DNA of 64,000 nucleotides. Origin: a virus. This document shows, piece after piece, positions 9,601 to 63,210 of this stretch. A model generated the notes under the pieces. That model worked only from the letters and a program-made list of their open reading frames with translations. It was not told the origin of the DNA and searched no databases. Position numbers and translations under genes: made by a program. The stretch's first letter is position 1. Every line of letters starts with the position of its first letter. The DNA lies in IMG/VR virus record IMGVR_UViG_3300047678_000239, positions 33,159 to 97,158 of that record; one strand, 5' to 3'.

Positions 9601-10201
9601 ACGAAATGTTTACCGACGATGAAATTGAACTTACGTTAAACGTTATTGAAGCTAAAGACTGAGAAATCGATGAGGATAAAATCGTATTAGCTGTAGAAAA
9701 CGAAGATGATAGAAGTTCATTAGCCGAAGAAAACGAAGAAGAATTTCCGGTGAACGTCGATGAAAACGACGATGAGACAGCCTCCACAGTCGTTACCAAG
9801 GACGAAGACACATTTTGAATCGAAGAATTAAACGACTGAGTGGCAAAATTCAACGACGCTGACGTAGCGTTTATAGAAGAGTAAACATTGGCAAGGTTTG
9901 TTGTAAACGATGCTGAAGTTGATACAAAGCTAGCAGATATTAATGCCGTGGCAAATTGAATATTTTGATTTGACGAAGACAACGCTTCTACCGAACCAGT
10001 CAATGCTGCAATTGAGCTGGTCATTGCGTTTATCAAAGGAACATTTACTGTGTATGGGAGACTTGTCCAGGTTCTAACTCCATCACCGAATTTTATGTTC
10101 TGTGTGTCGGTTTCAATACCTTGTTCTCCAAGACGCAATATCGGATTGACAAAAATCCATTCTGCTGCTGTTCCTCTACGAACTTGAATTGTCATTCCCA
10201 T
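3602..10201 (-). CDS. Giant Ser/Thr-rich tail fibre with 18-residue repeats, Thr-Pro linker and Ig-like tip
   Basis: A 2199-residue structural protein. Residues 3-50 resemble the Mtd N-terminal fold of phage receptor-binding proteins (IQVRRGTAAEW, then GEQGIETDTQNIKFGDG). From about residue 80 to 1780 the chain is an almost uninterrupted array of 18-residue units of the type SSSLAASIxTLxxTVxxN, with hydrophobic residues at positions 4, 8, 11 and 15. A segment near 1785-1875 (ending IDASKINAGTVNVS) resembles the C-terminal part of phage J-type tail tip proteins. A Thr-Pro linker follows (about 2044-2098), then a Cys-containing Ig/PKD-like domain with APYTYLW. The ATG overlaps the stop of the upstream gene (TAATG). 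The protein is likely trimeric and long enough to be a major host-contact fibre. The Ser/Thr content makes O-glycosylation plausible. Confidence 0.85.
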   Translation of the reverse strand: MGMTIQVRRGTAAEWIFVNPILRLGEQGIETDTQNIKFGDGVRTWTSLPYTVNVPLINAMTSSIAALTGSVEALSSSNQNIQFATALISASFVSTSASFTTNLANVYSSINATSASLNFATQSFNSSIQNVSSSLVTTVEAVSSSFSSTFTGNSSSFSSANELLSSSFSTANTILSSSISQSLASITFNVSSISSSVNISLASLSSSLTVTNSAISSSTSAAVTSLSASDSTARTSLSSSLTATSLAVSSSTSIASTAISSSLSSVSINSTETSASLVTISSSLATGLSVLGAAAGASASLLTTVSSSLTAITTTTSSSLSIVSSSLSRLSGSVIIQSSSLLNQSASISTVQGTIITNSSSFAGRADSISATTTTTSASLAASMTTMQGVFTTQSASLALQITLLSGSFSTNSGSIETQVLNIQQQLTDTSSSLASQFNNLSSRVTTDSSSLAASITSTNSTQTTFSQSMALKTDNINSSYLAASASLSSSVGSLTTTITNNSSSIAAVFTSLNSSYLAASSSLSSSVGSLITTDTNNSSSMALRVTTLNSSYTTASSSFSSSIGSLSTTITTNSASVALVVSNLNTSYTAASSSFSSSIGSLTTSVTTNSSSIALVVSNLNSSYLAASSSLSSSINTLSSTIATNSSSAAIVVTSLNSSFTAASSSFSSSIGNLSTTVTTNSSSIASVFTSLNSSYQAASSSFSSSIGTLATTDTNNSSSMAARVTTLNSSYVAASASFSSSVGSLTTTITTNSASVALTVTNLNSSYVAASASFSSSVGSLTTTITNNSSSIAAVVSNLNSSYTTASSSFSSSIGGLSTAISTNSSSIALSVTTLNSSYLASSSSFSSSIGNLSTTISTNSSSIALRVSTLSASYIGLDSASISANITNVQLAQTTASSSLAGRIDTLSSTQTTNSSSLAASITTVSLAATTASSSAASRLDGVASTATSNSSSLAASIVTTNTTLTITSSSLATRITSTSGSLVNASSSLAASIVSLSSTVITNSSSVAVREDSLASSIALASSSLSSSIGVTQGTITTVSQSFAVSETALRSSVTANSSSAAAVITTLQATVTTNSSSAATRLDTLASSITTASSSLAASITTTQGTVVSNSSSLAQSISTLSSSTAIASASFVSSIISVQGSLTTTSSSLAGRVDSLSASTTSASASLAASIVTTQAAATTLSSSVSTRITTLSANAISDSSSFSSLITTQAGTIASNSSSAATVATTLSASVVTNSSSLAASITTVNSAVVTNSASFTTTVNALTSTVNNNAATVSTLNSTVTTNSSSAAARMDTISSNVTTNSSSLAASITTVSLAATTASSSAAGRLDSISATYTSGSASLAASIVTTQGTITTVSQSFATSETAIRSTATSNSSSFSSAITTTNTTATSTSQSLAGRIDTLSSTVVTNSASFSSSLAITNATVTNVSSSFAVSETAIRSAATTNSASFSSALTTTNSTVVSNSSSAALRMDVISSTYTSGSASLASSIVTTQGTITTVSQSFSTSETALRSSVTTNSSSFSSNLTSTNVTVASNSSSLAGTITTVSASATTASASLAAGIVTANSTIISNSASFAVSETAIRSTATSNSSSLAASIVTLGATVTSNSSSFAISETAIRSSVTTNSSSFSSAITSTNSTISSNSSSFATTITSLSSTVNNNSASMATIANTVVSNSSSAATRMDTINSSVVNNSSSFSSTFTTLKGTVTTNSSSEASRMDTMTATATSNSSSLASTITTLQGTVVSNSSSAAQSISTVSAVANNASASVSVTSTAVATLSGSVASEYVLNVTAGNRVAGFRLTNAGGAGSASAFVIQVDKFQIVNASGTQNTAPFTVDGAGVYMDQAYIRNIDASKINAGTVNVSLVLNAATINAGNVFGSAINGGQLVVTNGGNVNLAYSNFEQNPTGSVDQGGIGFEIGGLQTSYTQFPTWIDFHSTNRLLDGESRILRRAGKDGHFDFIQSGTGSFRFYSNSAFSSSGVFSGSVERFRITTTGVSIDGGTTLIGSNSTGNRFISTSAPSGGSDGDIWYQYSVVPATPTPTPTATPTPTPTPGAPTPTPTPTPTSTPGPTPTPTPTPTPTPTPTPTPVPLSVTLNQSSLFAGCYTAGGYCENDTASVTATPHNGVAPYTYLWTGPAVSPTSATTKFRVGISCRDDYTIPVEVTVTDANNNIATVGIDIIVQDSYNGLCL
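3903..4071 (-). repeat. Thr-Pro-encoding minisatellite in giant fibre gene
   Basis: A short-period repeat (units such as GGTGTTGGAGTAGGC on the plus strand) encoding alternating Thr-Pro on the minus strand. Similar tracts occur in three other fibre genes in the window and could support recombination between them. Confidence 0.8.
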
Positions 10202-11884: not shown

Positions 11885-12651
11885 TCAATACTCTTTTAGT
11901 TCTCCAGACTTTTCATTATACCGCAAAAATTTGCATTTTAGCAAAGATTTTATATTGTCCATTCGTTTCACATCTTTTTGTCTCAACTCATTTCTAACAT
12001 AATGTCTGGGTTCATCATATTCTACAACAATATTTTTGATTGGCTCGTAGTAATCAAGCGAATATCCAAACTCTGTCAAGACATATTGAATTCCATTTTT
12101 TCCATAAAAAATTCCATTCCAATCAAACTCCATTTCCATTTTAGTAAAATATTCGGATTCATTTTTTACCAACGTTAGCTCCACCTTTCAACAAGGCTCG
12201 AGTTAATGCAGCCTTTCTCATCTTTATTTTACTTTTTTCTGAATGATTTTTGCCATAGAAAGGATTGTCTTCTCCGCATCTATAAATTCCAAACATTCCA
12301 TTTCCTTTTCCCGACATCTTCTTTTTTGTTCCGTCTGAATGTTTTCTTCCCAATTGGGAACGTGACATTCTTCGCTTAGTTTCAATTGATGGTATTCTTC
12401 CAGAATTAACACCTATAGACGCACATTTTTTGCATTTAGTATTCTTTCTTATTGCTCGAAGATAATCAATATAATATTTGTAATCAACAACCGACTGGCA
12501 CCTAGCACATTTTCTTTTTTCTAAATTTCCAATATCGCTGCATTCTATCTTCGCAAATTTTTTTCCTGTTTCTATCATAATATGCTTTAGATTTTCTTCT
12601 GTTACATTCATTTCTTTCTTCCTTTGTATGATATAATTTTTTTCTTCCCAT
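11885..12651 (-). pseudogene. Homing endonuclease (zinc ribbon, NUMOD3, Vsr-like nuclease) broken by two +1 shifts
   Basis: Three overlapping frames join into one homing-endonuclease-like protein. The first starts at ATG 12649-12651 behind an excellent Shine-Dalgarno (AAAGGAGGAAAC) with MGRKKLYHTKEER and stops at 12503. The second carries the zinc ribbon (CARC, CKKC) and NUMOD3 DNA-contact repeats (SIETKRRMSRSQLGRKHS) and stops at 12159. The third holds a Vsr/DUF559-like nuclease core (NIVVEYDEPRHY, KCKFLRYNE). Each junction falls on a run of six A residues, and removing one A at each restores a single reading frame of about 250 codons. It lies between the fibre module and the recombination nuclease gene. 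Either it is decaying, or the A-run lengths are miscalled, or both sites are recoded. Confidence 0.7.
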
Positions 12652-21043: not shown

Positions 21044-21054
21044 CTATAAATATT
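21044..21054 (-). promoter_or_regulatory. Late-type box AATATTTATAG
   Basis: Reads GAATATTTATAGTAGTATATG on the coding strand. It lies within the gap between the homing endonuclease stop and the start of the FG-GAP protein. Confidence 0.5.
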
Positions 21055-21890
21055 CAGACCGATGCTTTATTGGTTGTCTTCAACACCTTCATTTCTTTCA
21101 ATTTATCCTCTATGATTGATATGTTCTTTTTTATATCAGATTCCCAAAATCGAATAACTTCATAACCTCTAACTTTGGCCATATCTTCTTTAAGTCTGTC
21201 CTTGATTCTTGCTTTTTCGGCTCCCCAAAAATGATGCTTTGTGTTAGGATTTCCGTGCCAATAATCTCCATCAATCTCTATAATGATAGGTTTGTTTTTC
21301 AACTTGAAGTCGTAAGAACCACATGTTTTTCCGTCGTGGATGAAAAATCCATAGTGATACTTAATACCCAGCCTATCTAACTCATTTGACACTTTTGTTT
21401 CCAGTTTATTCTTACTACGAAGAGACATCATTTTTTCGACGGCTTCTGGAGTGTGAGTTTTACCGAACATTGGATTTTTCTCACCAGCGGAAAGGCCGTT
21501 CTTTATTCTCGTTGCTGAGATTTTGGCTCGGACCTCTGGTCGAGTTGATGAATTATTTTGGCCCATGTTATCCGGTCTCGGGTGGCTATTTGCTGAGCCT
21601 ATTTTTTTCTTCGTTTCATCGCTCAGCTCGGCGCCGGTTCTATGAGACTTTACTCCCGTCCATGTTTTTCTCATTTCACGGAGGCACTCTTTCGAACAAG
21701 AATTTCCCTTTTTTGCCTTAGACTTTGTTATTTTTCCACAAATCTCACACTCAACCCATCCCAAAAATCTAAAGTCATCAATATTTTCTTCAACATATTC
21801 CTGGAATACTTTTCCGTGACTTTTCAAGTGCATCGGAAACGCTTTTGGATGAATTTCCCTCTTACAAATCTTACAGGTTATGTTGCTCAT
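21054..21890 (-). CDS. NUMOD3-containing homing endonuclease with Vsr/DUF559-like nuclease
   Basis: Read from ATG 21888-21890 (MSNITCKICKREIHP) this is a protein of about 278 residues. It has N-terminal Cys pairs (CKIC, CEIC) for zinc, NUMOD3-like DNA-binding helices (LSDETKKKIGSANSHPRP, MFGKTHTPEAVEKMM), and a C-terminal Vsr/PD-(D/E)xK-like nuclease with IIIEIDGDYWHGNP and YEVIRFWESDI. A start 15 bases further upstream is possible, but a late-type box sits between that codon and the ATG chosen here. It is a free-standing mobile gene lodged between two tail genes that share a related C-terminus. Confidence 0.8.
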   Translation of the reverse strand: MSNITCKICKREIHPKAFPMHLKSHGKVFQEYVEENIDDFRFLGWVECEICGKITKSKAKKGNSCSKECLREMRKTWTGVKSHRTGAELSDETKKKIGSANSHPRPDNMGQNNSSTRPEVRAKISATRIKNGLSAGEKNPMFGKTHTPEAVEKMMSLRSKNKLETKVSNELDRLGIKYHYGFFIHDGKTCGSYDFKLKNKPIIIEIDGDYWHGNPNTKHHFWGAEKARIKDRLKEDMAKVRGYEVIRFWESDIKKNISIIEDKLKEMKVLKTTNKASV

Positions 21891-21893
21891 AAC

Positions 21894-21903
21894 CATAAAT
21901 ATC
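21894..21903 (-). promoter_or_regulatory. Late-type box GATATTTATG
   Basis: Reads GATATTTATGGTT directly before the MSNIT start codon of the homing endonuclease. Confidence 0.4.
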
Positions 21904-21953
21904 AAACCAAATCACCAAAATGCTCACTATCCAGTCATATATTAATCAACACC

Positions 21954-23081
21954 TCAAACATCAAGGCGAATTTTTATAAGAGTTTCATTAGAAAAATTCT
22001 TGAGCGCAGCTTGGCTTAACTTAGCTACGGCTACAAGGTCGTTGTTTTCATTGTAAAGACCAACTGTGGTGATGTAAACTTGAGGGTCGGTCGAGAAGCT
22101 AGAGAATCTCAATTTACCAACATCACCCGAATCAATTACTCCAGCATCTGCTTCAGCTTGAGTGTAGACAAAGGTTGGGTTGTTTGAATAATTAAACTCT
22201 TGATTCTTAACTCTAATAAAATAATGACGAGCTGGAACGTATTCAGTAACTCTAGCTCGGATGGAACCGGTGTGGTTATTGATGATGCAATTTGCAAATC
22301 TGTTATGCATCAAAGCGTATGAATTATTTGTTCCAAGACTGCTTGTTGGAGTGGATAAAGCTCTACCTGTAGGAGACGTTCCCACAATGGAACTGATTAC
22401 CGATGGGTTCAAGATTACCAACCCGAGGTCAGGATACATTGAACCTGCTCCAGAATACACAACTTGACCGAGACTGTTTAGATTTGCTCCACCAGCCAAT
22501 GTTCCTTGAACAATGTTGTAACGTTTTCCACCAGCGGTTCCGGATGGTGTCTTATTATAACGTGAATCATCAATGAAAGTGAATGTTCCCTTAGAACCAA
22601 CCAAAGTTAGTTCAAATTGACCTGGGTCAAGTCTATCCTTAACTTTAGCTCCGGAGAAATTGATGGAATAAATGTCAACTGAGTTTACTTCTGATGTAGC
22701 AGAACCGGTGTAGAAAGTGAACAAAGCGTCATCTGGAATCAACAAGAAGTTTCTATATTGATTGTAAACCGCTTGAGTTGGTTTCAACAAGCTTCCGTTT
22801 GATGTATTCAAGTCAAAACCAGAAGAACCAGAACCAGCATAATGACCATAAGCTACAGACAAATATACTTCGGATGAAGCGGAGCCGGTTGGTTGGTCAT
22901 AAAGATTGATATAATACAATCCATTTAGAGGAACCAAAGCAGACGAACCGGTGATTTTTGCTTGAGCACTTGAAGTGTAGAACGCTGTCCATTGTGACTG
23001 CCCACCGGAAAACATTCCGGTAGATACTTGTTGGACTCTACCCGAAACAACGTCAGTTTGGTCAAAATTCTTAAAAATCAT
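21954..23081 (-). CDS. Tail/baseplate structural protein
   Basis: A 375-residue beta-rich protein without a signal peptide. Its final segment (YITTVGLYNENNDLVAVAKL) is clearly related to the end of the 1050-residue FG-GAP protein, so this may be the domain by which several proteins dock to the same baseplate site. It lies 9 bases after the next upstream tail gene and is probably in the same transcript. Its N-terminal region (residues 1-280) is Ser/Gly/Tyr rich with no recognised family. Confidence 0.7.
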   Translation of the reverse strand: MIFKNFDQTDVVSGRVQQVSTGMFSGGQSQWTAFYTSSAQAKITGSSALVPLNGLYYINLYDQPTGSASSEVYLSVAYGHYAGSGSSGFDLNTSNGSLLKPTQAVYNQYRNFLLIPDDALFTFYTGSATSEVNSVDIYSINFSGAKVKDRLDPGQFELTLVGSKGTFTFIDDSRYNKTPSGTAGGKRYNIVQGTLAGGANLNSLGQVVYSGAGSMYPDLGLVILNPSVISSIVGTSPTGRALSTPTSSLGTNNSYALMHNRFANCIINNHTGSIRARVTEYVPARHYFIRVKNQEFNYSNNPTFVYTQAEADAGVIDSGDVGKLRFSSFSTDPQVYITTVGLYNENNDLVAVAKLSQAALKNFSNETLIKIRLDV

Positions 23082-37098: not shown

Positions 37099-37289
37099 TA
37101 ATAGCCCTCTTCGTTTTCAGTTTCTTCGTCTTCCCTATCTCTTGGAGAAACATAATCAATTTTCTCCTCAATATCTAACTGCTCATTAATCATCTCGACT
37201 ACCTCACAAACATCCGTCCAATCTTTATGCTTAATGGCGTATCTTAAAATTTCTTTTATCTCAAGTATGAATTCTTCGTTTGGGGTCAT
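37098..37289 (-). CDS. Small acidic protein between deformylase and membrane protein
   Basis: A 63-residue helical, very acidic protein starting at the ATG inside the deformylase stop (ATGA overlap). It ends in an acidic tail (DREDEETENEEGY). A GTG 12 bases upstream is an alternative start. The function is unknown. Confidence 0.65.
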   Translation of the reverse strand: MTPNEEFILEIKEILRYAIKHKDWTDVCEVVEMINEQLDIEEKIDYVSPRDREDEETENEEGY

Positions 37290-37906
37290 AGGATTGTCCA
37301 CCCTTCTTTCTCAACAAATTCCAAAGCGTGTTTATACTTCAAATATTTTGTATCGGTTCCTTTGCTAATCATGACTTTATCATTTCGTCCATGTTTAACT
37401 TCAGCCTTCTTTGGTGGAAGAATAACTCTGATTCCATTGTCAATCATAAGTCTGCCGTATAGATGGTCTATCTCATGTTGAACACAAACTGCCTTGAGAA
37501 GTCCTTCATCTGTAGAAACGGAGTCTCTCGTAACAGGAATCACATCAGCACCAAATGGAATTGGATTTGCGTGATTAAGAGTCGAAACTACAATTTTAGA
37601 TGAGCGAATTGTTGAAGTAGTTTTTCCTGGAATACTCAAACAGCCTTCCAAGTAAATTACTTTTTCAGGACTTCTTTCTGTAATTTGTGGATTGATTAGA
37701 ATGAGAGGTTCTTCATCTTTCTTGATTTTAATAATTGATACACTTTTTGAAATTCCGATTTGATTGGCCGATAGACCAATTCCGAACTTTATTTCATTAA
37801 GGGCTTCAATGAGCTGAGCTGCAATTGCCATACCTTCTTCAACGGTTGTGACCGGAGTTGTTGGGCGGTGCAAATAGTCTTTATTGGTAACGATTTTGTA
37901 TTTCAT
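37286..37906 (-). CDS. def: Peptide deformylase
   Basis: A 206-residue Fe/Zn metalloprotease that removes the formyl group from nascent proteins. All three family motifs are visible: GIGLSANQIG (motif 1, Ser where Ala is usual), EGCLSIPG (motif 2, with the metal Cys), and QHEIDHLYG (motif 3, HExDH). Phage deformylases are common in marine T4-like phages and act on phage and photosystem proteins during infection. A promoter with TTGACA and TATATA boxes lies upstream, so it can be expressed separately from the gene to its right. Confidence 0.9.
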   Translation of the reverse strand: MKYKIVTNKDYLHRPTTPVTTVEEGMAIAAQLIEALNEIKFGIGLSANQIGISKSVSIIKIKKDEEPLILINPQITERSPEKVIYLEGCLSIPGKTTSTIRSSKIVVSTLNHANPIPFGADVIPVTRDSVSTDEGLLKAVCVQHEIDHLYGRLMIDNGIRVILPPKKAEVKHGRNDKVMISKGTDTKYLKYKHALEFVEKEGWTIL

Positions 37907-39065: not shown

Positions 39066-39931
39066 TTATATATATTTGTGAGTTATTGGGTCTCGTTTAC
39101 GTCCTATTTGCCAAGAAGACATCTTGCAGCGTGTTTCTTCTGTTATGTTTTTCTTTGCTATAGACATTTTCGTCCGTGTTTCTTTAGACATTTTCTTTCC
39201 TCTCAAAGAATTTCCTATCTTCCTACGACATTCTTCAGTCAAAGACTTTCCAGTTTGAGCAATTGACATTCTTTTTTTGGTTTGTTCTGAAAATTTTCTG
39301 CCTGTATTGGCCAGGGATATTTTCCAATTGTATTTTGCTGTGAATCTAACGGCTCTGAGGATTCTCAAAGGGTCTTCACCAAAAATAACGTCGGGGTCTA
39401 AAGGAGTTCTGATAATTCCAGCCTTAATGTCTTCTTTACCCATTCCGGTTAAATCTAAAGTTTCTCCGGTTGTCAGGTCGTGGAGAAGACTGTTGGCGGT
39501 AAAATCTCTGCGCTTAACATCATCTTCGAGCTCGCCACCAGAAACCTCAGGCTTTCTACTTCCTGGTGTGTATTTTTCTTTTCTAGGAGCGACGGCTTCA
39601 ATGTCAATTTCACTCAAATCGTGACCTTTGTAATTGACTCCCTTTAAAGTAAATTTAGCAGTTCCGTATGTTGGATAAATTACAGGATTCGAACCTTCTT
39701 TGTAATTTCCAATTTCCTTCGCAGCCTATGTTGCAAAATTGATACCGGCATTTACGTCACCTTTGACAACCACATCCAAATCCTTTGGGTCAGCCCCAAG
39801 TTGCATGTCGCGGGTGCGCCGCCGGCCAGATAAACCTTTCCCTTGAAAGGACCTTTCTTGACTAAATCGGACAGAAATTCAAGAGCCACCTTATCACGTA
39901 AGGCTTCTTGAAGTATGCTTTTAAGTTTCAT
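39066..39931 (-). pseudogene. Broken CCA-adding enzyme/poly(A) polymerase head fused to NUMOD3 remnant
   Basis: From ATG 39929-39931 (MKLKSILQEALRDKV) the sequence encodes a class II tRNA nucleotidyltransferase/poly(A) polymerase head: YLAGG, then after a one-base shift near 39811 RDMQLGADPKDLDVVVKG, an in-frame TAG at 39726-39728, DDVKRRDFTANSLLHDL and FGEDPLRILRAVRF. The final 70 residues are different: KFSEQTKKRMSIAQTGKSL, KMSKETRTKMSIAK and ITEETRCKMSSWQIGRKRD are NUMOD3 helices of a homing endonuclease. So an enzyme gene was interrupted by a homing element and then decayed. The TTG to TAG change and the frameshift make it non-functional as sequenced. Confidence 0.65.
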
Positions 39932-44534: not shown

Positions 44535-46211
44535 TTAACAAGGTGTGCCAACTGTAGAAAGTGTGAGCGGTGCTCCGATACCGCCAGTGTATGTGATTGA
44601 AACATCTGATGGTAAACATCTGTCTTCTAAATAAGTTGTTGCATTGGTTGCTGGTGGAGAAACGTTTCTCGAAACCAATTCACTGCCGCTTGTTCCAGCT
44701 CCAACCGAAGACCAATTAAATGCCAATTCAATTGCTCCGTTTGAAACTGCTGCTCCCGTTTTCTTTCCATAGAAGCTATAAACTTGATATGGATATGATG
44801 TAGCACTGTAGGATGGATGTGTAAATCCTACTGAAATTGGGAGTATTTCAAGATACCCAATGTTGTTGATAGAAGGCGCGGAACCGACTCCATCATCAAC
44901 CGTTGTCATATTCTTTATTCCAGAAGAATCTGTGATTGTATTTGAATCAAAGTTATTTGAAGTATTCGTAGCATTGCGAATGTTGTAGTGATATTGAGAA
45001 CCATTTTGGATTCCTACTACACTCATGGACAATGCATTCGATGGGCTTATCAAACATTGACCAGCTCCAAATATGAATTTTCCTCCAGATACTCTTGTTA
45101 TAGATGCTGTGATTGTATTTGGAGTTAGAGAATCTGGGCAACTTACTATCAATGCAAAACGATTGTTTGCTATAGGCAACGTTAGGCTGTGATTTACAAT
45201 TGTTGCGCTTGTCACAGAAGTTGTCCACAAGTTAGAGTTTGCAACTATGTCTCTCAAGGTTATTGTTGCTGGGCGAGCGCCGTCAACCGTTGTAGCAGCT
45301 GTTAAGTCGATGAATAGAGATACATTTGATACAGCATTTGGTTGAACTATAACTTGTAAATCGTTGTTTCCGCCAGTTCTTGTATTTCCAGTCACCGAAG
45401 CATATGTGAATTCAAATGATGGTGATGGGTTTAAAACTGCAGTCGGCGTTATTACTATATTTGTGGCTGGCATCAAAATAGTATTAGGATTTGTGTTTGT
45501 TCCATTTTGTAGATAAAACACATCACCAGACCAAGCGTTGAAAGTGTATCCACCTGCTACACCAGCTCCAACAGAAACGTATGTTCCAGCAGGATATGCT
45601 CCAGTTCCATACGTAGATGTAATTCCCGCCTGACCACCATTTACAGCCAATGTGTATGTTGTAGGTGCAGGAGTTGGAGTAGGTGTTGGTGTAGGAGTAG
45701 GAGTAGCTCCACCTGGTGTTGGTGTAGGTGTTGGAGTGGCTGTTGGAGGAATTGGCGTAGGAGTAGGAGTAGGCGTAGGTGTTGGAACACTGCCAGCAAC
45801 TACATTCTGAGTATAATTCAAAGTTCCAATTCCGCCGGAGCCTGATACTATCAGTGTTGAGTATCCTGTTCCCTCTGTTCCATCATATGATGCCGTTATA
45901 TAGAATATAGAATCTGGTGGAATGGTTATTCTTGAATTATTGGCAATTGTCGATGGGTTTTTGAAAGAACTTCCTGCTGGGCCCGTGACGATATTCAAAT
46001 TTAGAGAAACGGAAAAATCCAAATTCGGATTATAAATTCCTCTTGCTTCTGAACCAGGAGTAAACTGAGCAAAATTAACTACGTTTGTTATCAGTCCACC
46101 GGATGACCAATAAATTGGCGAAGGTGTTGATGGAGATACCGCAGCTGGTATCGCTTGGAAATCACTTCCTATATCCCCAACCTCAACTAATCCAATGTAT
46201 TCGTTATTCAT
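44535..46211 (-). CDS. Fibre/adhesin protein with Thr-Pro linker and InlB-like repeat
   Basis: A 558-residue structural protein. Residues 1-140 (YIGLVEVGDIGSDFQAIP ... SIFYITASYDGTEGTGY) are related to residues of about 240-385 of the 761-residue protein. A Thr-Pro linker spans about 142-183. Then comes an InlB B-repeat-like module (YTLAVNGGQAGITSTYGTGA, FNAWSGDV) and a beta-rich C-terminal region (residues 260-558). No signal peptide. It is likely a tail fibre or whisker component whose distal part binds the host surface. It starts 2 bases after the stop of the 438-residue gene. Confidence 0.7.
   Translation of the reverse strand: MNNEYIGLVEVGDIGSDFQAIPAAVSPSTPSPIYWSSGGLITNVVNFAQFTPGSEARGIYNPNLDFSVSLNLNIVTGPAGSSFKNPSTIANNSRITIPPDSIFYITASYDGTEGTGYSTLIVSGSGGIGTLNYTQNVVAGSVPTPTPTPTPTPIPPTATPTPTPTPGGATPTPTPTPTPTPAPTTYTLAVNGGQAGITSTYGTGAYPAGTYVSVGAGVAGGYTFNAWSGDVFYLQNGTNTNPNTILMPATNIVITPTAVLNPSPSFEFTYASVTGNTRTGGNNDLQVIVQPNAVSNVSLFIDLTAATTVDGARPATITLRDIVANSNLWTTSVTSATIVNHSLTLPIANNRFALIVSCPDSLTPNTITASITRVSGGKFIFGAGQCLISPSNALSMSVVGIQNGSQYHYNIRNATNTSNNFDSNTITDSSGIKNMTTVDDGVGSAPSINNIGYLEILPISVGFTHPSYSATSYPYQVYSFYGKKTGAAVSNGAIELAFNWSSVGAGTSGSELVSRNVSPPATNATTYLEDRCLPSDVSITYTGGIGAPLTLSTVGTPC
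45663..45790 (-). repeat. Thr-Pro-encoding minisatellite
   Basis: A GTTGGAGTAGGTG-type short repeat encoding Thr-Pro in the 558-residue fibre protein; it is related to the tracts near 3.9, 46.5 and 48.5 kb. Confidence 0.75.
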
Positions 46212-46213
46212 AA

Positions 46214-47530
46214 TTAGTTACATAGTGATGGCCATGTATCGTGAATATTGATATAAGCAAACGCTTCAAAGTTATATCCAAGATTATCTGTAATTGTGCA
46301 AGAAATTGGGAATGTTCCGAAATCACCACATATAATGTCAACTGAGAACGTCGTTGTTGGGTTCGTTGGGTCGTCAGATGGAAATTCCCATAGATAAGTG
46401 TATGGAGCCGTTCCACCAAATGCTGTGACTGTGATTGGGTTTGTTGTAGCTCTACATACAGAACCGTGAGAATTGCAACCAACATTCGTTAATCCAGGAG
46501 CTATCGAACCAGACAAAGGTGGAGCGGTTGGTGTTGGAGTAGGAGTTGGAGTATCTGTTGGGGCAGGCGTAGGTGTAGGAGTTGGCGTAGACGGTATAGG
46601 AGTTGGCGTTGGTGTCGCCGTCGGAGGAACCGGAGTTGGTGTAGGCGTAGCGGTCGGCCCACCAGGCGTTGGTGTAGGCGTCGGCGTCGGCGTAACTGTT
46701 GGAGTCGAGGTCGGAGTTGGTGTTGGAGTAGCCGTTGGCCCAACTGGGGTCGGTGTAGGTGTAGGCGTAGGCGTTGGAGTGGTAGTTGGTGTAGGTGTTG
46801 GCGTAGGCGGCGGAGCGACCAACGAATATCCAGAAAACACCTTTTCTCCACCAGCCTTAAATACCGAATAATTATTTGTAGAATCCGACTGTAGATTAAA
46901 ATAATAATTTGGATTGTTTCCAGTTGGAGTTATCTGATTTGTTACATCAACAAATCTTCCTTTTCCTCTTCCATATGGGTTTGTATTATAAACCTTTAAA
47001 TACAATTTATCAGACGGACTAATTTTTCCAAATCCCTGAGCAGAGTCAAATGGAAGACCAAAACCACCAACTTTGGTAACGGTGATGGTCATTGTTATTT
47101 TCTCACTACTTCTAGCAGAACATCTGATAGTATGTATTCCAGCCGACAGAGATGGGGTGATAAATGAGCCAGAGCTTCCTGAATTTTGAGTCATTACGGT
47201 CACACCATTTAACTGGACAAGAAGTTCTTTTCCAGAACTGAATGTATTATTCTCACAAGATACTTCAACCCTAGCCACAGCAGTTCCTGATGGAATTCTG
47301 AATTTTAGTATTGGAGCATCTATCGCAGTGTCTCCAAACTGGCTATTTGCCGTAAATGAGACTTTTTCAAATATGAGTGTTTCCGCTGTTGGAATTCTAG
47401 TCCAACCAACATTTGTTCCTGAATCGCTGTTCTTTAAGAACGCGTGGCCACCATCTGTGGTGATTAAGTCTCCTTGAACACCGAAGATTTTGTTTTCTGG
47501 CTCATCATGTGTTGGTAATCCACGATTCAT
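46214..47530 (-). CDS. Fibre/adhesin protein with Thr-Pro linker and Ig-like tip
   Basis: A 438-residue protein. The N-terminal module ([38 protein letters not shown]) is paralogous to the start of the 761-residue protein. A long Thr-Pro linker (about 239-334) leads to a C-terminal Cys-containing Ig/PKD-like domain with APYTYLWEF, clearly related to the end of the 2199-residue fibre. It is likely a short fibre or decoration protein with an exchangeable binding tip. Starts 5 bases after the stop of the 761-residue gene. Confidence 0.7.
46528..46812 (-). repeat. Longest Thr-Pro-encoding minisatellite
   Basis: About 285 bases of GTAGGCGTTGGTGTCGG-type repeats encoding Thr-Pro with interspersed Gly-Pro, Ala-Thr-Pro and Val-Pro units in the 438-residue protein. 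Confidence 0.8.
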
Positions 47531-47535
47531 TTAAA

Positions 47536-49821
47536 TTATGGGGAGAATTGAGCGCCAGCTGTTTTATTACCATCTATGAAGATGGTTGTGGTCGAAGAAC
47601 CAGCATCTGTAATAGCGGATGAATTATTAACACCTGCTCCGGAAGAGCTCCAACTGTCGAAGAAGTCGAATCCATTGACCGCTGTAATTGTTGGGAACGT
47701 TCCAGCTGCTTTAGAGCCTCCACCGAATACACTACCATCTCCAGAAGCAGATGTTGAGAGTGTATAATTAGGTGTAGCTGGATTTGCTGGAGAATATGAT
47801 GAAACATCAATTTCTAAATCAGATTCACCTTCCGTTGACCTTCCGGCATAGAAAGTAGCTGATGTTCCTGATGGAACCACATTTGTCAACGCTGTTCCAT
47901 CTGGAGCTGCTCCGTCGAGGTCTATCCCATAAGAAAGGACATTTACAGACAATGGATTTGTCCAGCTCTTAGCATATCCTCCCATTGTATTATCAATAAC
48001 TGCGACATATGGAATTGTGCATCCACTTGGCATACCACTCAAGACGATGTTTGCATCGAATCCAGCTCCTCCACCAATCCAATTTCTTGCACCGTATCTC
48101 AATGAAGCATCATTGAATACACCAGGTCCAGACTTCGTAACAGTTGTTTTTGTGTTTGGATTTCCACTTCCAACACTAACATGCATTTGAATGTTGAATG
48201 AAGAACCATCCGTTACTTCGGATGTTGTTAAGTTAAATGTGAATGGACCATAACCGGACACATTTCTAATGATTGAACCATTCTTAGTCAAAGTGATGGT
48301 CATACTATTAATGAACACTCCACCAATTTGTCCAGCATCTTCAACAACAACTTGAACCGTTGTTGAGCCAGCTGTTCCGGTCAATATGAATCCAGGAGAA
48401 CAGGAGTTTGGATAACGTGGTAGATTTCCTCCAATATAGTTTGCACTTCCAAACAACCAACCATTGAATACGCCAGTTGTGTAAGAGAATGGTGGAATTG
48501 GCGTAGGAGTAGGTGTAGCCGTCGGCGGCGGCGGAGTTGGAGTAGGAGTTGGAGTAGGCGTAGGCGTAGGTGTAGCCGTTGGACCCGAAGGGGTTGGAGT
48601 AGGCGTAGGCGTAGGCGTAGAACCAATTGGAGTAGGTGTAGGCGTAGGCGTAGGCGGAATTGGTGTAGGCGTAGGAACAGCCGCGGCGTAAATGAACTGT
48701 TGATAATAACATGCTCCGATGCTCGATACCGCTGACAACACTCTTGGTAATCCTCCAGCAGTTCCAGAAGTTCCATTGTAACTCGATGTAACGTAAACAA
48801 AACTTCCTGCAGGAACCACTACTGAACCGGATGTTGGATTGAAAGTAATACTTGTTGGTCCACCAGCAACTGATAAATTAGCAATAGCAGCAAAATCAGT
48901 ATTACTATTAACCAATCGTGTTATAGAAGATGTAGCATAATTTTCGGTGAACGTATCCGAATACAAGCTCAAACCATTTGCCCATTTCAATGGTGTATAA
49001 GTGGCTGACTTCGATGTATAGACAGTTGGTGGTGTGGAGAAAGCGGTTGTATCTGTGAAATCAACAATTTCCAAGAAACCAATCGTATCACTTGTAAAGA
49101 CTCCAGCGGTTCTTCCTAAACAATTGATTTGTCCGCCGCCTATGAACGTAGCGTAATTGTTAACTCTATCTCCATTCAAATCATAAAAATATAGAGGATT
49201 TGTTGAATTCGGCATGGTGGAATTGGTCGCATCGTAGAATCTAGCCTTGCCGGTCGAAAATTGATTTGTATTATAAACCTGCAACAACATATCGTTGACA
49301 GAATTAATTTTAGCGTAACCTTGTGCGCTTGTGAATTGAGGACCAAAACCACCAACCTTGGTTATCGTAACTGTCAATGAAACTTTTTCGTCGCTTTGGC
49401 AACTTGTTCTAACTTGATGCCAACCTCCACCAAATTCAGAAGTTACAAATGATAGAGAAGAACCAGAAGTCGTTGTGATTGCTGACGCTGAATCAAATTG
49501 AACCCACAGCGGTCTAGCTGCGGTAAACTCGTAACCGGGTGTATTAACCACAACATCAACTTTGACGATTGCCGTTCCACTCAACAATCTGAAGCGTAGG
49601 TCAGATGAGTCAGCGGACGATGTTCCGTATTGAACGGTTGAAGTTAGGGACAAGCTCTCAAATTGGACAACCTCTGGAGAAGGAATTTCAGACCAACCGA
49701 TATTCAACGTGTCATTGAATTGCTTGATGTATGCTTTTCCTTCATCGGTGGAAATAACTGTTCCAATTGTTCCGAAAACATTACCTTCTGGTGAGCCGTG
49801 GCTTGGTAGTCCGTTTGTCAT
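47536..49821 (-). CDS. Fibre/adhesin protein with Thr-Pro linker and InlB-like end
   Basis: A 761-residue protein. The N-terminal 235 residues (GLPSHGSPEGNVFGTIGTVI ... GGFGPQFTSAQGYAKIN) are paralogous to the 438-residue protein, and residues of about 240-385 match the N-terminus of the 558-residue protein, so this single protein combines the front parts of the other two. A Thr-Pro linker lies at about 383-441. The C-terminal 80 residues (YTLSTSASGDGSVFGGGSKA) are InlB-repeat-like. It is a probable fibre subunit with a host-binding tip. Confidence 0.7.
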   Translation of the reverse strand: MTNGLPSHGSPEGNVFGTIGTVISTDEGKAYIKQFNDTLNIGWSEIPSPEVVQFESLSLTSTVQYGTSSADSSDLRFRLLSGTAIVKVDVVVNTPGYEFTAARPLWVQFDSASAITTTSGSSLSFVTSEFGGGWHQVRTSCQSDEKVSLTVTITKVGGFGPQFTSAQGYAKINSVNDMLLQVYNTNQFSTGKARFYDATNSTMPNSTNPLYFYDLNGDRVNNYATFIGGGQINCLGRTAGVFTSDTIGFLEIVDFTDTTAFSTPPTVYTSKSATYTPLKWANGLSLYSDTFTENYATSSITRLVNSNTDFAAIANLSVAGGPTSITFNPTSGSVVVPAGSFVYVTSSYNGTSGTAGGLPRVLSAVSSIGACYYQQFIYAAAVPTPTPIPPTPTPTPTPIGSTPTPTPTPTPSGPTATPTPTPTPTPTPTPPPPTATPTPTPIPPFSYTTGVFNGWLFGSANYIGGNLPRYPNSCSPGFILTGTAGSTTVQVVVEDAGQIGGVFINSMTITLTKNGSIIRNVSGYGPFTFNLTTSEVTDGSSFNIQMHVSVGSGNPNTKTTVTKSGPGVFNDASLRYGARNWIGGGAGFDANIVLSGMPSGCTIPYVAVIDNTMGGYAKSWTNPLSVNVLSYGIDLDGAAPDGTALTNVVPSGTSATFYAGRSTEGESDLEIDVSSYSPANPATPNYTLSTSASGDGSVFGGGSKAAGTFPTITAVNGFDFFDSWSSSGAGVNNSSAITDAGSSTTTIFIDGNKTAGAQFSP
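48497..48671 (-). repeat. Thr-Pro-encoding minisatellite
   Basis: A GGAGTAGGCGTAGG-type repeat encoding the Thr-Pro linker of the 761-residue fibre protein. Confidence 0.75.
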
Positions 49822-54420: not shown

Positions 54421-55263
54421 TTATAAAGAATCTGGGATGTAATTTTTTACCAATTCCTGTAGAGCCGGCATTGACGCGTCCTTCTGTGCTTGAAAATCAA
54501 AACCAGGACTTTTCTTCTGCTGGACGCCTTGGAGAGCCGCCAGCTGCTTTTTGGCGAGAGGATTGATGTGTTGTTGTGCCATCAACTCCTTTTGTTCAGC
54601 ATCGCTTCTTGTTTCTCCGTGTTCTCCACTCAATTCGTCATAAGTGTATAAGTGAACTTTATCAAGAAACTCATAAACAATTTCATTTGGTTTCAATCCA
54701 TAAACATCTACGAGTTTAAAAATGGTAGTCAAGTAAGGATATGTTCTTTTCCTATTTGCCCAAAAACTAACCACTCTCTCTTCTACCCAAAATCTTCCCA
54801 TTATAAATCTTGGGTCGGTTTTTGAAATGGCACCATCCAAAGGAATCATTTCATCCATTGTTTGAAGGTAATTAGCCAAATCGTTTGCTCGTTTGATGTT
54901 CAACGTATAAATCTTTCCTTCGGTTGAACCTGGCCCAACATCCACATCAGCAGATGGTTCAAAGCTGGCACCCTTTCCGTCCATCGCATTATACAAATCA
55001 AACTTCTTAGGTCTTCTCCAATAATGGACAATTTGCTCACCCATGTCAGGATGAGTCATAGCGAAATCATCTGAATCAGCATAGAGAATTTCTTTGGCAT
55101 CTGTATCAAGGATAAATGTAATCGCTCCTGGCATATCAAAATAGGCCACTTGCATGTCCCTTGTGTTGAATCCCTTTGCCTTTAAGGTAGTTACTTGCCC
55201 TGGCCCGAGATGAATCCTATTTGGGTCTTCGGTTAGGAGATTCTTGAGAAGCATATCTTTCAT
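54421..55263 (-). CDS. Hypothetical protein, late-expressed
   Basis: A 280-residue protein (MKDMLLKNLLTEDPNRIHLG) with an N-terminal helix and a compact alpha/beta core (AYFDMPGAITFILDTDAKEI, WANRKRTYPYLTTIFKLVD) and a C-terminal Gln/Lys-rich linker plus helix. It is preceded by a late-type box 7 bases from the ATG, unlike its early-type neighbours, so it may be a virion or morphogenesis protein. No family is recognised. Confidence 0.6.
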   Translation of the reverse strand: MKDMLLKNLLTEDPNRIHLGPGQVTTLKAKGFNTRDMQVAYFDMPGAITFILDTDAKEILYADSDDFAMTHPDMGEQIVHYWRRPKKFDLYNAMDGKGASFEPSADVDVGPGSTEGKIYTLNIKRANDLANYLQTMDEMIPLDGAISKTDPRFIMGRFWVEERVVSFWANRKRTYPYLTTIFKLVDVYGLKPNEIVYEFLDKVHLYTYDELSGEHGETRSDAEQKELMAQQHINPLAKKQLAALQGVQQKKSPGFDFQAQKDASMPALQELVKNYIPDSL

Positions 55264-55591: not shown

Positions 55592-55834
55592 GTGAAATAT
55601 CACATCGTTCAGAAAGGCCCTCTGTTTTTTCCACAATACAAATACAAGTATTGGCCTTTCTGGCTGTATTTTAAGCCAGAAAACAAGTTTCAAAAGGTTG
55701 GCCGCTTTTCAACGGAGTGGGAAGCGAGCTGTCGTATCAAGTCTGACGCCAACACGAGAAAGCGTCAGGCTGATGCGAAGGTGGTCAAGAAGATTATTCC
55801 GCTTGACCCTTTCAAAGAAGAGAAGAAGGGTTAA
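55592..55834 (+). CDS. Small hypothetical protein with GTG start
   Basis: 80 residues starting with GTG right after the stop of the broken membrane gene (TAAGTG). It is Lys/Tyr-rich (PQYKYKYWPFWLYF) with a basic C-terminus (ANTRKRQADAKVVKK). It converges on and overlaps the next minus-strand gene by 4 bases at the stops. Unknown function. Confidence 0.5.
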   Translation: MKYHIVQKGPLFFPQYKYKYWPFWLYFKPENKFQKVGRFSTEWEASCRIKSDANTRKRQADAKVVKKIIPLDPFKEEKKG

Positions 55835-56082
55835 ACCTTCTTTTCGTCTTTCAGAACGCTGCGGCAATATTTGACCGCAGCCCATCCAGACAAGAACGGA
55901 ATCCACAACGGAGACGTTACGGCCAGCGCTACAAACACGCCAAGGAGAAATACTCCGGCGATAATCAATGCCGCAAAAATGGTGGCCATTGAAATAACCA
56001 CACCTTTGATAAGGATAGGTAGAGCGATGATGGAAGCAAGAACTGCTCCGATAATAATGAGGGTTTTGGTGAGTTTAGTCAT
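55831..56082 (-). CDS. Small membrane protein
   Basis: 83 residues from ATG 56080-56082 (MTKLTKTLIIIGAVLASIIA). Two or three hydrophobic helices (IIGAVLASIIALPILIKGVV, LIIAGVFLLGVFVALAV) and a short charged tail. Probably an inner-membrane protein of unknown role. It converges with the plus-strand gene at 55592. Confidence 0.55.
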   Translation of the reverse strand: MTKLTKTLIIIGAVLASIIALPILIKGVVISMATIFAALIIAGVFLLGVFVALAVTSPLWIPFLSGWAAVKYCRSVLKDEKKV

Positions 56083-56176
56083 ACCATAAGAACACACCAA
56101 ACCCGCGGAAGTTTCAATTAAATAGAGAAACGCCGAGAAGGTTTTTCTCTTATATATAAAGTCCCACGATAACCAA

Positions 56177-56446: not shown

Positions 56447-57304
56447 TCAAACCTTCAATTTATACATGCCAGTTCCTTCAGCACGTTGAATAAACGAATC
56501 AACACCAAAGCGAGAAATGATGGAATAAATCTTGGTTTGAACCGTATCTGGTTGAACACCCAAATCAGAAGCAGTCTTTTTACAAGCATCTTTCATGCTA
56601 AATGGAATTCCCGGTTTGAAATACTTTGAAAACACCTTCTTACATAAATTATGCATTTCGGCAGAAATGTTATCATAACTACGAGCTTTTGTTTCTTGAA
56701 CACCATTTGTTGTCAGTTCATCAAATTGCTTCTGAGCCTTGTCTAAGATTTCAGCAACAGAGCGAAGATATTTAGATGTAGGATTGCTCAAGGTGAGTTG
56801 AGAAATCACGATATTGGATTTGGTTGTATTTTTCATTTGATTATTGGTTAAATTGTTTAAAATAGAAAGAGGTAAAATCTCAGTGACGTTAAAATTGTTA
56901 GAAAGGATAAAAAGATTGTTTTTACGAATATCAATTTCTTCTTGTTTGGTTAAATTGTATTCTAATAATTCTTTTCTAAAAAACTTATCATTGTTTTTGC
57001 GACCAACATTACAAACATAATGAGTCTGCCTAACATTATTTCCAACATAACCTCCGCCACATTTGATTTGGTCTGCAGAAGTACCGTATGGATGGCGGGG
57101 AACATGATGTTCGTCTTCACTCTTTAACACACCAATAAAAAACGCAATGGTTTTTCCACAAACAGCACAGCGAGAATCCTCTTCCAAAATACATTTTCGG
57201 ATAGATTTCTCAAACGCCTTTTCCTCTGTTTTATAATTTTTATTCGCTTGGCGCCCACTCAATTTTGCTCGAGCGACCATTCGACAAATAAGATTACGAT
57301 TCAT
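56447..57304 (-). CDS. HNH endonuclease-like protein with C-terminal helix-turn-helix-like region
   Basis: A 285-residue protein. An HNH-like zinc core is visible (CAVCGKTIAFF, DEHHVPRHPYG, GNNVRQTHYVCNVGRKN). The C-terminal third (FSMKDACKKTASDLGVQPDT, VDSFIQRAEGTGMYKLKV) looks like a winged-helix or HTH DNA-binding region. Its promoter region carries operator-like palindromes, so it may be a regulator of the divergent pair as well as, or instead of, a nuclease. An intact homing function is not shown. Confidence 0.6.
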   Translation of the reverse strand: MNRNLICRMVARAKLSGRQANKNYKTEEKAFEKSIRKCILEEDSRCAVCGKTIAFFIGVLKSEDEHHVPRHPYGTSADQIKCGGGYVGNNVRQTHYVCNVGRKNNDKFFRKELLEYNLTKQEEIDIRKNNLFILSNNFNVTEILPLSILNNLTNNQMKNTTKSNIVISQLTLSNPTSKYLRSVAEILDKAQKQFDELTTNGVQETKARSYDNISAEMHNLCKKVFSKYFKPGIPFSMKDACKKTASDLGVQPDTVQTKIYSIISRFGVDSFIQRAEGTGMYKLKV

Positions 57305-57444: not shown

Positions 57445-57472
57445 TTGACAAATGAGTTATATTGTTTAAATT
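57445..57472 (+). promoter_or_regulatory. Sigma70-like promoter of the plus-strand operon
   Basis: TTGACA (57445-57450), 16 bases, TAAATT (57467-57472). The -10 ends only 6 bases before the ATG at 57479, so the start point must be at or near the start codon. Confidence 0.4.
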
Positions 57473-57478
57473 GAAGAT

Positions 57479-57787
57479 ATGAAAACAAAGACATTGGAAG
57501 AACGCTCGGGCAAAGAGGTTTATGACCAAGTTATGAAATATCTCAAAGACCAAGAGGCCAAAGCTCTGGCGGATAAAAAGGCCATTCCTCATCCTTTGAA
57601 TTTCATGTTATCAACCCACGAAGAACAACAAGCGGAAATGCACGCCGTTGAATTGCACAATAGTCGTTGTGAGGCAACTGCCGGCGTTTACAATGATGTG
57701 GCGTATGTGATGCACAACAGTTACATTGAAGCGCCACAGAAGGCTCAAGATGTGATTGATTTAAATCGCTTTGGTTCCGGTATATAA
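57479..57787 (+). CDS. Hypothetical protein
   Basis: A 102-residue charged, mostly helical protein (MKTKTLEERSGKEVYDQVMK) with a GAAG just ahead of the ATG. First gene of the plus-strand operon that contains the bL12-like protein. No family is recognised. Confidence 0.6.
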   Translation: MKTKTLEERSGKEVYDQVMKYLKDQEAKALADKKAIPHPLNFMLSTHEEQQAEMHAVELHNSRCEATAGVYNDVAYVMHNSYIEAPQKAQDVIDLNRFGSGI

Positions 57788-57801: not shown

Positions 57802-57830
57802 TTGACAAGCGACCCGTTATACTATCTAAT
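57802..57830 (+). promoter_or_regulatory. Promoter-like element before bL12-like gene
   Basis: TTGACA (57802-57807), 17 bases, TCTAAT (57825-57830), only 9 bases before the ATG at 57840; expression from it would give an almost leaderless message. Confidence 0.4.
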
Positions 57831-57839
57831 TGTTTTACT

Positions 57840-58292
57840 ATGAACGTTGTAAATTGCACCACACGCCTGCCTTCCGTGGCTGGCCCTTATCAAGTTATTG
57901 TCAAGATTGCCGGAACCGCTTATTCTCATAAAGGAATTGCCTCTGGTGTATCATGGAATGGAACCAGTTGGGATGGAGCTGGCACAGATTCAGTGGTTGC
58001 TTGGGTTGACCCGGTCGCCGAAGTGGTCGTGGCACCAAAAGTGGTTGAACAAGCGCCGAGTGAAGACCCAATGAACGCCGCGGTCATCCTCACCGGTTCC
58101 GTCAAGGAACAACGCATCGGCGTCATCAAGCTCGTCCGTGAAATCACGGGTCTAAGCTTGGGTGATTCCAAGACTTTCGTGGACTCTCCGCCAAAAACCA
58201 TCAAGGATGGATTGTCCATTCCAGAAGCCGCCGAGTTGGCCGCTAAGGTTGTTGCGGCCGGGGGCCAAGTGAAGATTGAAGCTATCAAGTGA
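57840..58292 (+). CDS. Protein with a ribosomal bL12 (L7/L12) C-terminal domain
   Basis: 150 residues from ATG 57840 (MNVVNCTTRLPSVAGPYQVI). The last 70 residues closely match the factor-binding C-terminal domain of ribosomal protein bL12: RIGVIKLVREITGLSLGDSK, FVDSPPKTIKDGLS and EAAELAAKVVAAGGQVKIE. The normal N-terminal dimerisation and L10-binding domain is missing; instead there is an unrelated beta-type domain (SWNGTSWDGAG) and a Val/Pro linker. Phage-borne bL12 domains are known in uncultured phages and are thought to act at the ribosome or on GTPase factors. The stop overlaps the next gene start (TGATG). Confidence 0.8.
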   Translation: MNVVNCTTRLPSVAGPYQVIVKIAGTAYSHKGIASGVSWNGTSWDGAGTDSVVAWVDPVAEVVVAPKVVEQAPSEDPMNAAVILTGSVKEQRIGVIKLVREITGLSLGDSKTFVDSPPKTIKDGLSIPEAAELAAKVVAAGGQVKIEAIK

Positions 58293-58645
58293 TGAACGAA
58301 GATATCCAGAGAATCCTCATTGCAAAGATTTGTGGGCGTAAAACCTACGATGAACTTTCTTTTATGAGGAAACTCTGGCTACACTTTTGCACTCACAACG
58401 AAAGCCCAAATCCAGAAATGGATATGTTGCCGGACTATCTAAATGATTTAAACGCCATTGTTCCTCAGGTGAGAAAACTGAATGAAGAAAAGAGAATCAA
58501 GGTATTGACTTATTTGGATGCAATACACGCTCCTTATGGAGTTGTATCCAGTCTTGATACAATGGCAACCGCTACCAGCACTCCTGCTCAATGGTCAGAA
58601 GCATTTATCAGGGCACATGGATTGTGGGAAGAAACTATAGAATGA
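58292..58645 (+). CDS. Hypothetical protein in the bL12-like operon
   Basis: 117 residues from the ATG overlapping the bL12-like stop. Helical and charged (MNEDIQRILIAKICGRKTYD, IVPQVRKLNEEKRIKVLTYL). No family is recognised. Co-translation suggests a related role. Confidence 0.6.
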   Translation: MNEDIQRILIAKICGRKTYDELSFMRKLWLHFCTHNESPNPEMDMLPDYLNDLNAIVPQVRKLNEEKRIKVLTYLDAIHAPYGVVSSLDTMATATSTPAQWSEAFIRAHGLWEETIE

Positions 58646-58824
58646 CACCCTTACCTACATTTCCATGCTGGATTCATCATCGTGAAACCAAGACAGTTAT
58701 GCGTCATTGGAGGTTTTACCGTAGGTCTGAGGATGTGAATTGGGAATCTGCCACTCACTGGGAACTTCATACGGAAGGACTGAGTTGGGATGAAGGAATT
58801 CCCAAGGTCAATCCTGAACTATAA
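58642..58824 (+). CDS. Small hypothetical protein
   Basis: 60 residues starting in an ATGA overlap with the previous gene (MTPLPTFPCWIHHRETKTVM). Rich in Trp, His and Arg. Unknown function. Confidence 0.5.
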   Translation: MTPLPTFPCWIHHRETKTVMRHWRFYRRSEDVNWESATHWELHTEGLSWDEGIPKVNPEL

Positions 58825-61395: not shown

Positions 61396-61629
61396 TTAAA
61401 GCTTCGCCCACTTCTTGATGTAAATGGAGTTTCCGCCGGTGGTGCCGTCATCGTGACAGATAACATGGCCGGTGCAAGTCAGCCAATAGACGGTAGCGAC
61501 ATTATCGCCGAAAGGCGTCTTGTGCATAACGGTGTAATAGACTTTGCCTTCGAAGTCTCGTAGAGCGATAACCGTGCCTCGGGTGATAAAGGCGGAGACG
61601 GTCAGTAAAGGATGGCTGAATAGTTTCAT
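61396..61629 (-). CDS. Hypothetical early protein
   Basis: A 77-residue beta-rich protein (RGTVIALRDFEGKVYYTVMH, ATVYWLTCTGHVICHDDG). It is separated from neighbours by 3-6 bases. Unknown function. Confidence 0.55.
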   Translation of the reverse strand: MKLFSHPLLTVSAFITRGTVIALRDFEGKVYYTVMHKTPFGDNVATVYWLTCTGHVICHDDGTTGGNSIYIKKWAKL

Positions 61630-62943: not shown

Positions 62944-63210
62944 TTAGAACTTGGTGTAATCCTCAAAATAGAGGAATGAGTTGCGGGTCAGGGCGCGGTC
63001 AGCGCTCTGGATTCCAGCCGCGTATATCGCGTCGTCGAGTTGGTTGAAAATGTGACGGGGTGAAGCGCCAGGGCTGCCGCCGACACATTGACAAAGACCA
63101 CGTAGAGCTTCGGCGTCTTTCTTGGTGAGGTCAAGCGTAATGCGAATGACCGGAGCGTTTTTGGGAGTGAGGCCAGTGGCCTTGACTTTGGAGGGTGAGG
63201 CGGATTTCAT
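62944..63210 (-). CDS. Hypothetical early protein
   Basis: An 88-residue protein (MKSASPSKVKATGLTPKNAP) with a ferredoxin-like alternation (VIRITLDLTKKDAEALRGL) and a basic N-terminal tail. It ends one base before the signal-peptide gene. Unknown function. Confidence 0.5.
   Translation of the reverse strand: MKSASPSKVKATGLTPKNAPVIRITLDLTKKDAEALRGLCQCVGGSPGASPRHIFNQLDDAIYAAGIQSADRALTRNSFLYFEDYTKF

Follow-up and report, generated by a model that had tools for sequence, protein, structure and literature searches.

A small phage protein with a bL12 C-terminal domain, no uL10-binding domain and a probable DUF551-like head

Phage proteins that carry a domain of the ribosomal stalk protein bL12 are already known. 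According to Mizuno 2019 (PMC6375957), such proteins are encoded by phage genes and attach a bL12 C-terminal domain (CTD) with its factor-contact residues to an unrelated polypeptide; the domain occupies a variable position in larger proteins and was acquired repeatedly in different contexts. In that study, a tagged phage bL12 did not permit ribosome purification, so that a role in translation is not proven for phage proteins of this type (PMC6375957). L7/L12 is also listed among the genes of huge phages (PMC7162821). Cellular bL12 uses its helices 4 and 5, which form a positively charged site, to bind IF2, EF-Tu, EF-G and RF3 (PMC6753160). DUF551 (PF04448) is a portable domain joined to many phage proteins (PMC10834534); examples are YfdS of E. 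coli CPS-53 (PMC4776307), variant V2 of Ea22 and the Eae/EaA proteins of lambdoid phages. The protein analysed here likewise derives from a phage gene and likewise joins a CTD with factor-contact residues to an unrelated polypeptide. It differs in its DUF551-like head: in the accessible text of the Mizuno report, we found neither this head nor its joining to a bL12 CTD described. Its own traits, compared with the proteins in that text, are a length of 150 amino acids, a terminal CTD that follows a short hinge, and occurrence in three contigs. It is a compact and recurrent phage example in which the factor-catching half of the stalk is kept and the anchor dropped.

The gene lies at 57840-58292 on the plus strand of the window, that is, of the whole stretch of 64,000 nucleotides analysed, which corresponds to positions 33159-97158 of an IMG/VR virus record that is 97,158 bases long and lacks end repeats. 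The source contig belongs to a contractile-tail phage (terminase, gp25, gp6-like and PhoH genes). The reading frame runs from an ATG at 57840 to a stop codon at 58290-58292. A longer form starting at a TTG (57771) was ruled out, since a promoter lies between this TTG and the ATG at 57840 and the relatives align from the latter. The gene is under purifying selection and is not a chance ORF. Firstly, the same two-domain protein is found at full length in two further viral contigs, L001 (67% identity, with an alignment spanning the whole length) and L012 (47%), and both domains and the linker are retained in each. Secondly, codon-position identity with the L001 gene is 0.73/0.82/0.46, third positions being the most diverged. 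Thirdly, dN/dS over the whole gene is 0.27/1.35 against L001, or ~0.20. A scan of the genome contigs for the fusion protein gave no match, and the phage record collection yielded CTD hairpins only and no full-length fusion relative. The gene has a GC content of 53% versus 39.5% for the window, which suggests import. Import would also be expected of a captured fragment without present function; we judge this highly improbable, because three contigs whose GC differs widely (39.5%, 45% and 61%) carry the fusion intact, its dN/dS is ~0.2, and it has its own promoter and stands in a conserved gene block. This block is common to the window and L001, homologues of 54421-55263, 55831-56100, 61396-61629 and 62944-63210 being located near the L001 gene. 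In the L012 phage contig (~61% GC; 60 kb examined), the fusion gene is the sole gene in common with the window's contig.

The C-terminal half of the protein (residues 79-150; 58074-58289, plus strand) had been read in the first-pass annotation as the factor-binding half of bL12 whose L10-binding half is replaced, and both parts of this claim held. Residues 82-147 are a genuine bL12 CTD: they match PF00542 with 64.8 bits for a cut-off of 25.9 (E 9.2e-18), and bL12 chains of the PDB are matched by sequence, down to E 5.8e-10. The CTD has a pLDDT of ~83 in a full-length AlphaFold model built from a two-sequence alignment. Foldseek against the PDB ranks bL12 proteins first, and the structural match whose absence the annotation had named as disproof was found: the model overlays bL12 CTDs with TM values of 0.78-0.89, including 1ctf, the E. 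coli bL12 CTD, at TM 0.89 and an rmsd of 1.3 Å. The ClpS adaptor fold is a weaker structural match (TM ~0.6-0.7), and membership of ClpS was ruled out by an identity of 11-14% versus 30-43% for bL12 and by the absence of any ClpS profile match. Ahead of the CTD, alignments and low pLDDT delimit a linker of Ala, Val, Pro and Glu that resembles the bL12 hinge (residues 63-78; 58026-58073, plus strand), and the indels between relatives fall within it. The fusion protein has the CTD sequence and fold of cellular bL12 (rplL) with a hinge-like linker before it, but it lacks the N-terminal dimerisation and uL10-binding domain. PF16320, the profile of that domain, has no match in the fusion protein, whereas in the same scan two viral full-length bL12s scored above the cut-off and a third just below. 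The full-length bL12 profile TIGR00855 gives 62.9 bits, under its cut-off of 84.4. These results bear on whether the protein takes the place of host bL12 in the stalk, a role proposed for certain ribosomal proteins of phages. Such proteins can enter the 70S ribosome and phage bL12 peptides occur in ribosomal fractions (PMC6375957), but the absence of PF16320, which other surveyed viral bL12s have, makes replacement quite improbable. A further difference from a cellular stalk protein lies in the CTD itself, at positions 65, 79 and 81.

The residue map of the CTD was drawn with E. coli and T. maritima bL12 sequences as rulers; the lysine positions of the E. coli ruler agree with the list in PMC10602876. 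On this map, helices 4 and 5 (residues 89-115; 58104-58184, plus strand) are the counterpart of the surface that binds translational GTPases in cellular bL12 (PMC6753160); the stretch VIKLVREITGLSL occupies residues 95-107. In E. coli numbers, the fusion protein has R65, I66, G67, V68, I69, K70, V72 and R73, then G77, L78, S79, L80, G81, D82, S83 and K84. Five residues of the factor-binding set (K65, I69, K70, R73, L80, K84) are thus identical and K65 is replaced by R, a conservative change, as is V66 to I. The other surface changes, G79S and K81G, alter the binding loop and the first turn of helix 5. I69, K70, L80 and K84 do not vary across 43 viral CTDs; 42 have R73 and 40 have K65. The arginine at position 65 calls for caution, since in Salmonella L7/L12 both K65R and K70R reduce the binding of EF-Tu (PMC10602876). 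The helix surface, described at first as conserved, is therefore kept at I69, K70, R73, L80 and K84 and departs from cellular bL12 through K65R, G79S and K81G; its loss, the other disproof named in the annotation, was thus not observed.

With most of the docking surface present but no anchor, the most economical reading is that of an off-ribosome adaptor, and we lean towards it tentatively. The protein would combine a DUF551-like head, a flexible hinge and a bL12 CTD into a small phage adaptor whose ligands are translational GTPases away from the ribosome. The first-pass proposal that a free CTD could recruit or sequester EF-Tu, EF-G or IF2, or compete with host stalks, is in this respect partly supported. 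The CTD would dock via helices 4 and 5 on the G domain of EF-Tu, EF-G, IF2 or RF3; without a uL10-binding domain it would have no place in the stalk, so that factors would be engaged off the ribosome. The adaptor, which probably has a promoter of its own, might then compete for factors or carry them to a partner of the DUF551-like head. Factor binding, the partner of the head, the timing of expression and the effect on translation are what we infer. Given the modest affinity of the CTD and the large amounts of host bL12, competition would require high expression. Counted against the adaptor are the changes G79S and K81G, the weaker EF-Tu binding of K65R in Salmonella bL12 and the tagged phage bL12 that did not permit ribosome purification, and also the finding that, relative to L001, the CTD (dN/dS 0.38/1.31) evolves faster than the N-terminal domain (0.18/1.14), the reverse of what would be expected if factor contact were the main constraint.

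In view of the altered docking loop and of a CTD that diverges more quickly than the head, it is also possible, and almost as likely as the adaptor, that the bL12 CTD now serves in protein interaction or oligomerisation generally and has a partner outside translation, as may hold for other phage proteins with variably placed bL12 domains. The loss of K81 and G79 in the fusion fits this explanation, as does the occurrence of phage bL12 domains inside proteins of up to 724 amino acids that have homologues without the domain (PMC6375957). The partners seen in our own survey of viral bL12 domains also fit. Scanning viral contigs with a CTD profile gave 42 loci, many of which are complete bL12 while others consist of the CTD or its helix hairpin alone with unrelated sequence; the partners of the CTD or hairpin are many and unrelated (L029, L030, L039-L046, L048 and L049), and they include an 81-aa hairpin-only protein in L001's phage. 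This picture agrees with the account of Mizuno 2019 (PMC6375957). Co-option accounts less well for the residues that persist among viral CTDs, which include the factor-binding I69, K70, R73, L80 and K84, the charged ones among them being not obviously required for the fold. The 81-aa protein is the product of a second bL12-derived gene of that phage and holds only the helix 4/5 hairpin (IKRYRDLTGLGLFDAKEALE); its gene lies on the minus strand at L008:1480-1725, which is 21737-21982 of the L001 phage contig. In phages whose relationship was recognised by a gp6-like baseplate protein (Microcystis phage Mel-JY01, LR756508 and Flavobacterium immuto), no clear PF00542 gene was found; a sub-threshold stretch in LR756508 (15.5 bits) contains two in-frame TGA codons.

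A free bL12 CTD might instead act as a stalk decoy that titrates defence proteins landing on the stalk, for example the type III CRISPR effector Cami1. Cami1 is a CARF-RelE nuclease that is captured by the stalk and cleaves A-site mRNA (Mogila 2023, pmid 38033086, as cited in PMC11229360). In the Cami1-70S structure 8phj, the stalk CTD chain is matched by the model with a TM of 0.84 over 65 columns, and an unanchored CTD is the form expected of a decoy. However, the fusion protein matches no defence profile and no other anti-CRISPR evidence was found in the window, and we consider a decoy improbable. The same construct would serve to tell apart the possible actions of phage bL12 domains, on translation factors, on stalk-landing defence effectors or on neither.

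The N-terminal half (residues 1-62; 57840-58025, plus strand) was at first called a new domain. It is indeed not bL12's own, but on partial support, from structure models and weak sequence profiles, it is probably DUF551-like and hence of an already-known phage domain type. DUF551 was proposed, before testing, from the motif pattern R-L-P ... W-N-G-x-x-W ... V-V-A-W. The domain has no match in Pfam, PHROG or NCBIfam; the Pfam profile of DUF551 does not match it even at E 10, and a genome-wide search likewise gave none. A profile of the N-terminal domain reaches 15.6 bits on the DUF551 protein L069, a score attained by none of 29,000 shuffled DUF551 sequences (best 14.7). On the other side, the DUF551 profile ranks the N-terminal domain proteins low, and hhalign of the domain with 29 DUF551 sequences gives a probability of 9%, with 2 of 100 column shuffles scoring higher. 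As this profile-profile comparison is no better than the best column shuffles, the assignment is carried mainly by structure. The full-length model from two sequences leaves the N-terminal domain unresolved, and its BFVD list has no DUF551 protein among the matches listed. An alignment of three sequences restricted to the domain gives a confident all-beta model (pLDDT 86), for which a DUF551 protein is the top Foldseek match in BFVD (prob 1.00, E 0.034); counted by eye, ~15 of the 50 matches listed bear the DUF551 name. Because no single BFVD match has an E below 0.001, we term the domain DUF551-like and do not call it a member. Like DUF551 it is ~60 amino acids long with a predicted all-beta fold, and it shares an R-[LM]-P close to its beginning, one beta strand, a terminal V-x-x-W strand and the W-x-G-x-x-W stretch seen in some members. 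It differs in having neither the usual leading W-I nor the terminal HWMPLPEPP, in scoring below the Pfam cut-off, and in its N-terminal position joined to a bL12 CTD. The fusion offers a lead on a widespread phage domain through a partner of known function.

The fusion gene belongs to a cluster of small genes, and upstream of it we recognised a sigma70-like, consensus-like promoter, TTGACA-17-TCTAAT (57802-57830, plus strand), whose TTGACA is also present at -38 in L001. Only 9 nt separate the end of the -10 box from the ATG, so that the transcript would have little or no leader. The next gene of the putative operon (58292-58645, plus strand) encodes a 117-aa protein to which the L001 contig has a weakly similar homologue (27% identity, E 4e-5); its ATG begins in the fusion stop codon (TGATG), and the two genes are thus likely co-transcribed. 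A third small ORF follows at 58642-58824 (plus strand) with an ATGA overlap. The small gene preceding the fusion (57479-57787, plus strand; 102 amino acids) has its own promoter, TTGACA-16-TAAATT, 6 nt before its ATG. Beside the fusion gene of L001 (L001:5288-7309) is encoded a 673-aa protein with weak GmrSD_N (DUF262-like) and weak PADLOC NsnA matches; at the corresponding place, the window encodes an unrelated 285-aa protein with cysteine/histidine motifs (56447-57304). Over the two contigs, 8 of 17 promoter-like sites with an exact TTGACA have a start codon 6-10 nt beyond the end of the -10 box, for a background of 10% (binomial p ~1e-4). They are located at 57445 and 57802 (plus strand) and 54081 (minus strand) in the window, and at 29360, 29081, 15143, 55135 and 67743 in the L001 contig (G001). 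This spacing suggests leaderless transcripts. In vitro, IF2 as a rule promotes the translation of leaderless mRNAs (PMC9031893), and this effect is the only, and a speculative, link between the leaderless promoters and the fusion protein. There is a slim chance that the protein, as a soluble bL12 CTD which the DUF551-like head tethers, either serves as a decoy intercepting Cami1-like effectors or redirects IF2 or EF-Tu to the benefit of the phage's own apparently leaderless mRNAs.

The first-pass annotation had also taken a phage deformylase as a pointer to intervention in host translation. The gene is genuine (37286-37906, minus strand; PF01327 E 1.4e-27; PHROG peptide deformylase), but it is 20 kb away on the other strand and is not independent evidence; being in a different transcription unit and of a kind reported from phages generally (PMC7162821), it adds little. 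A tRNA search of the sequence found none. Elsewhere in the window, all on the minus strand, a 2199-aa Ser/Thr-rich repetitive protein with many NSSS/ASSSL repeats (3602-10201) is probably a tail fibre, several tail-region proteins at 44535-49821 carry long Thr-Pro repeats (TPTPTP), and ORFs that by eye resemble NUMOD/homing endonucleases are interspersed among the structural genes (12159-12611, 21054-21905 and 39066-39617).
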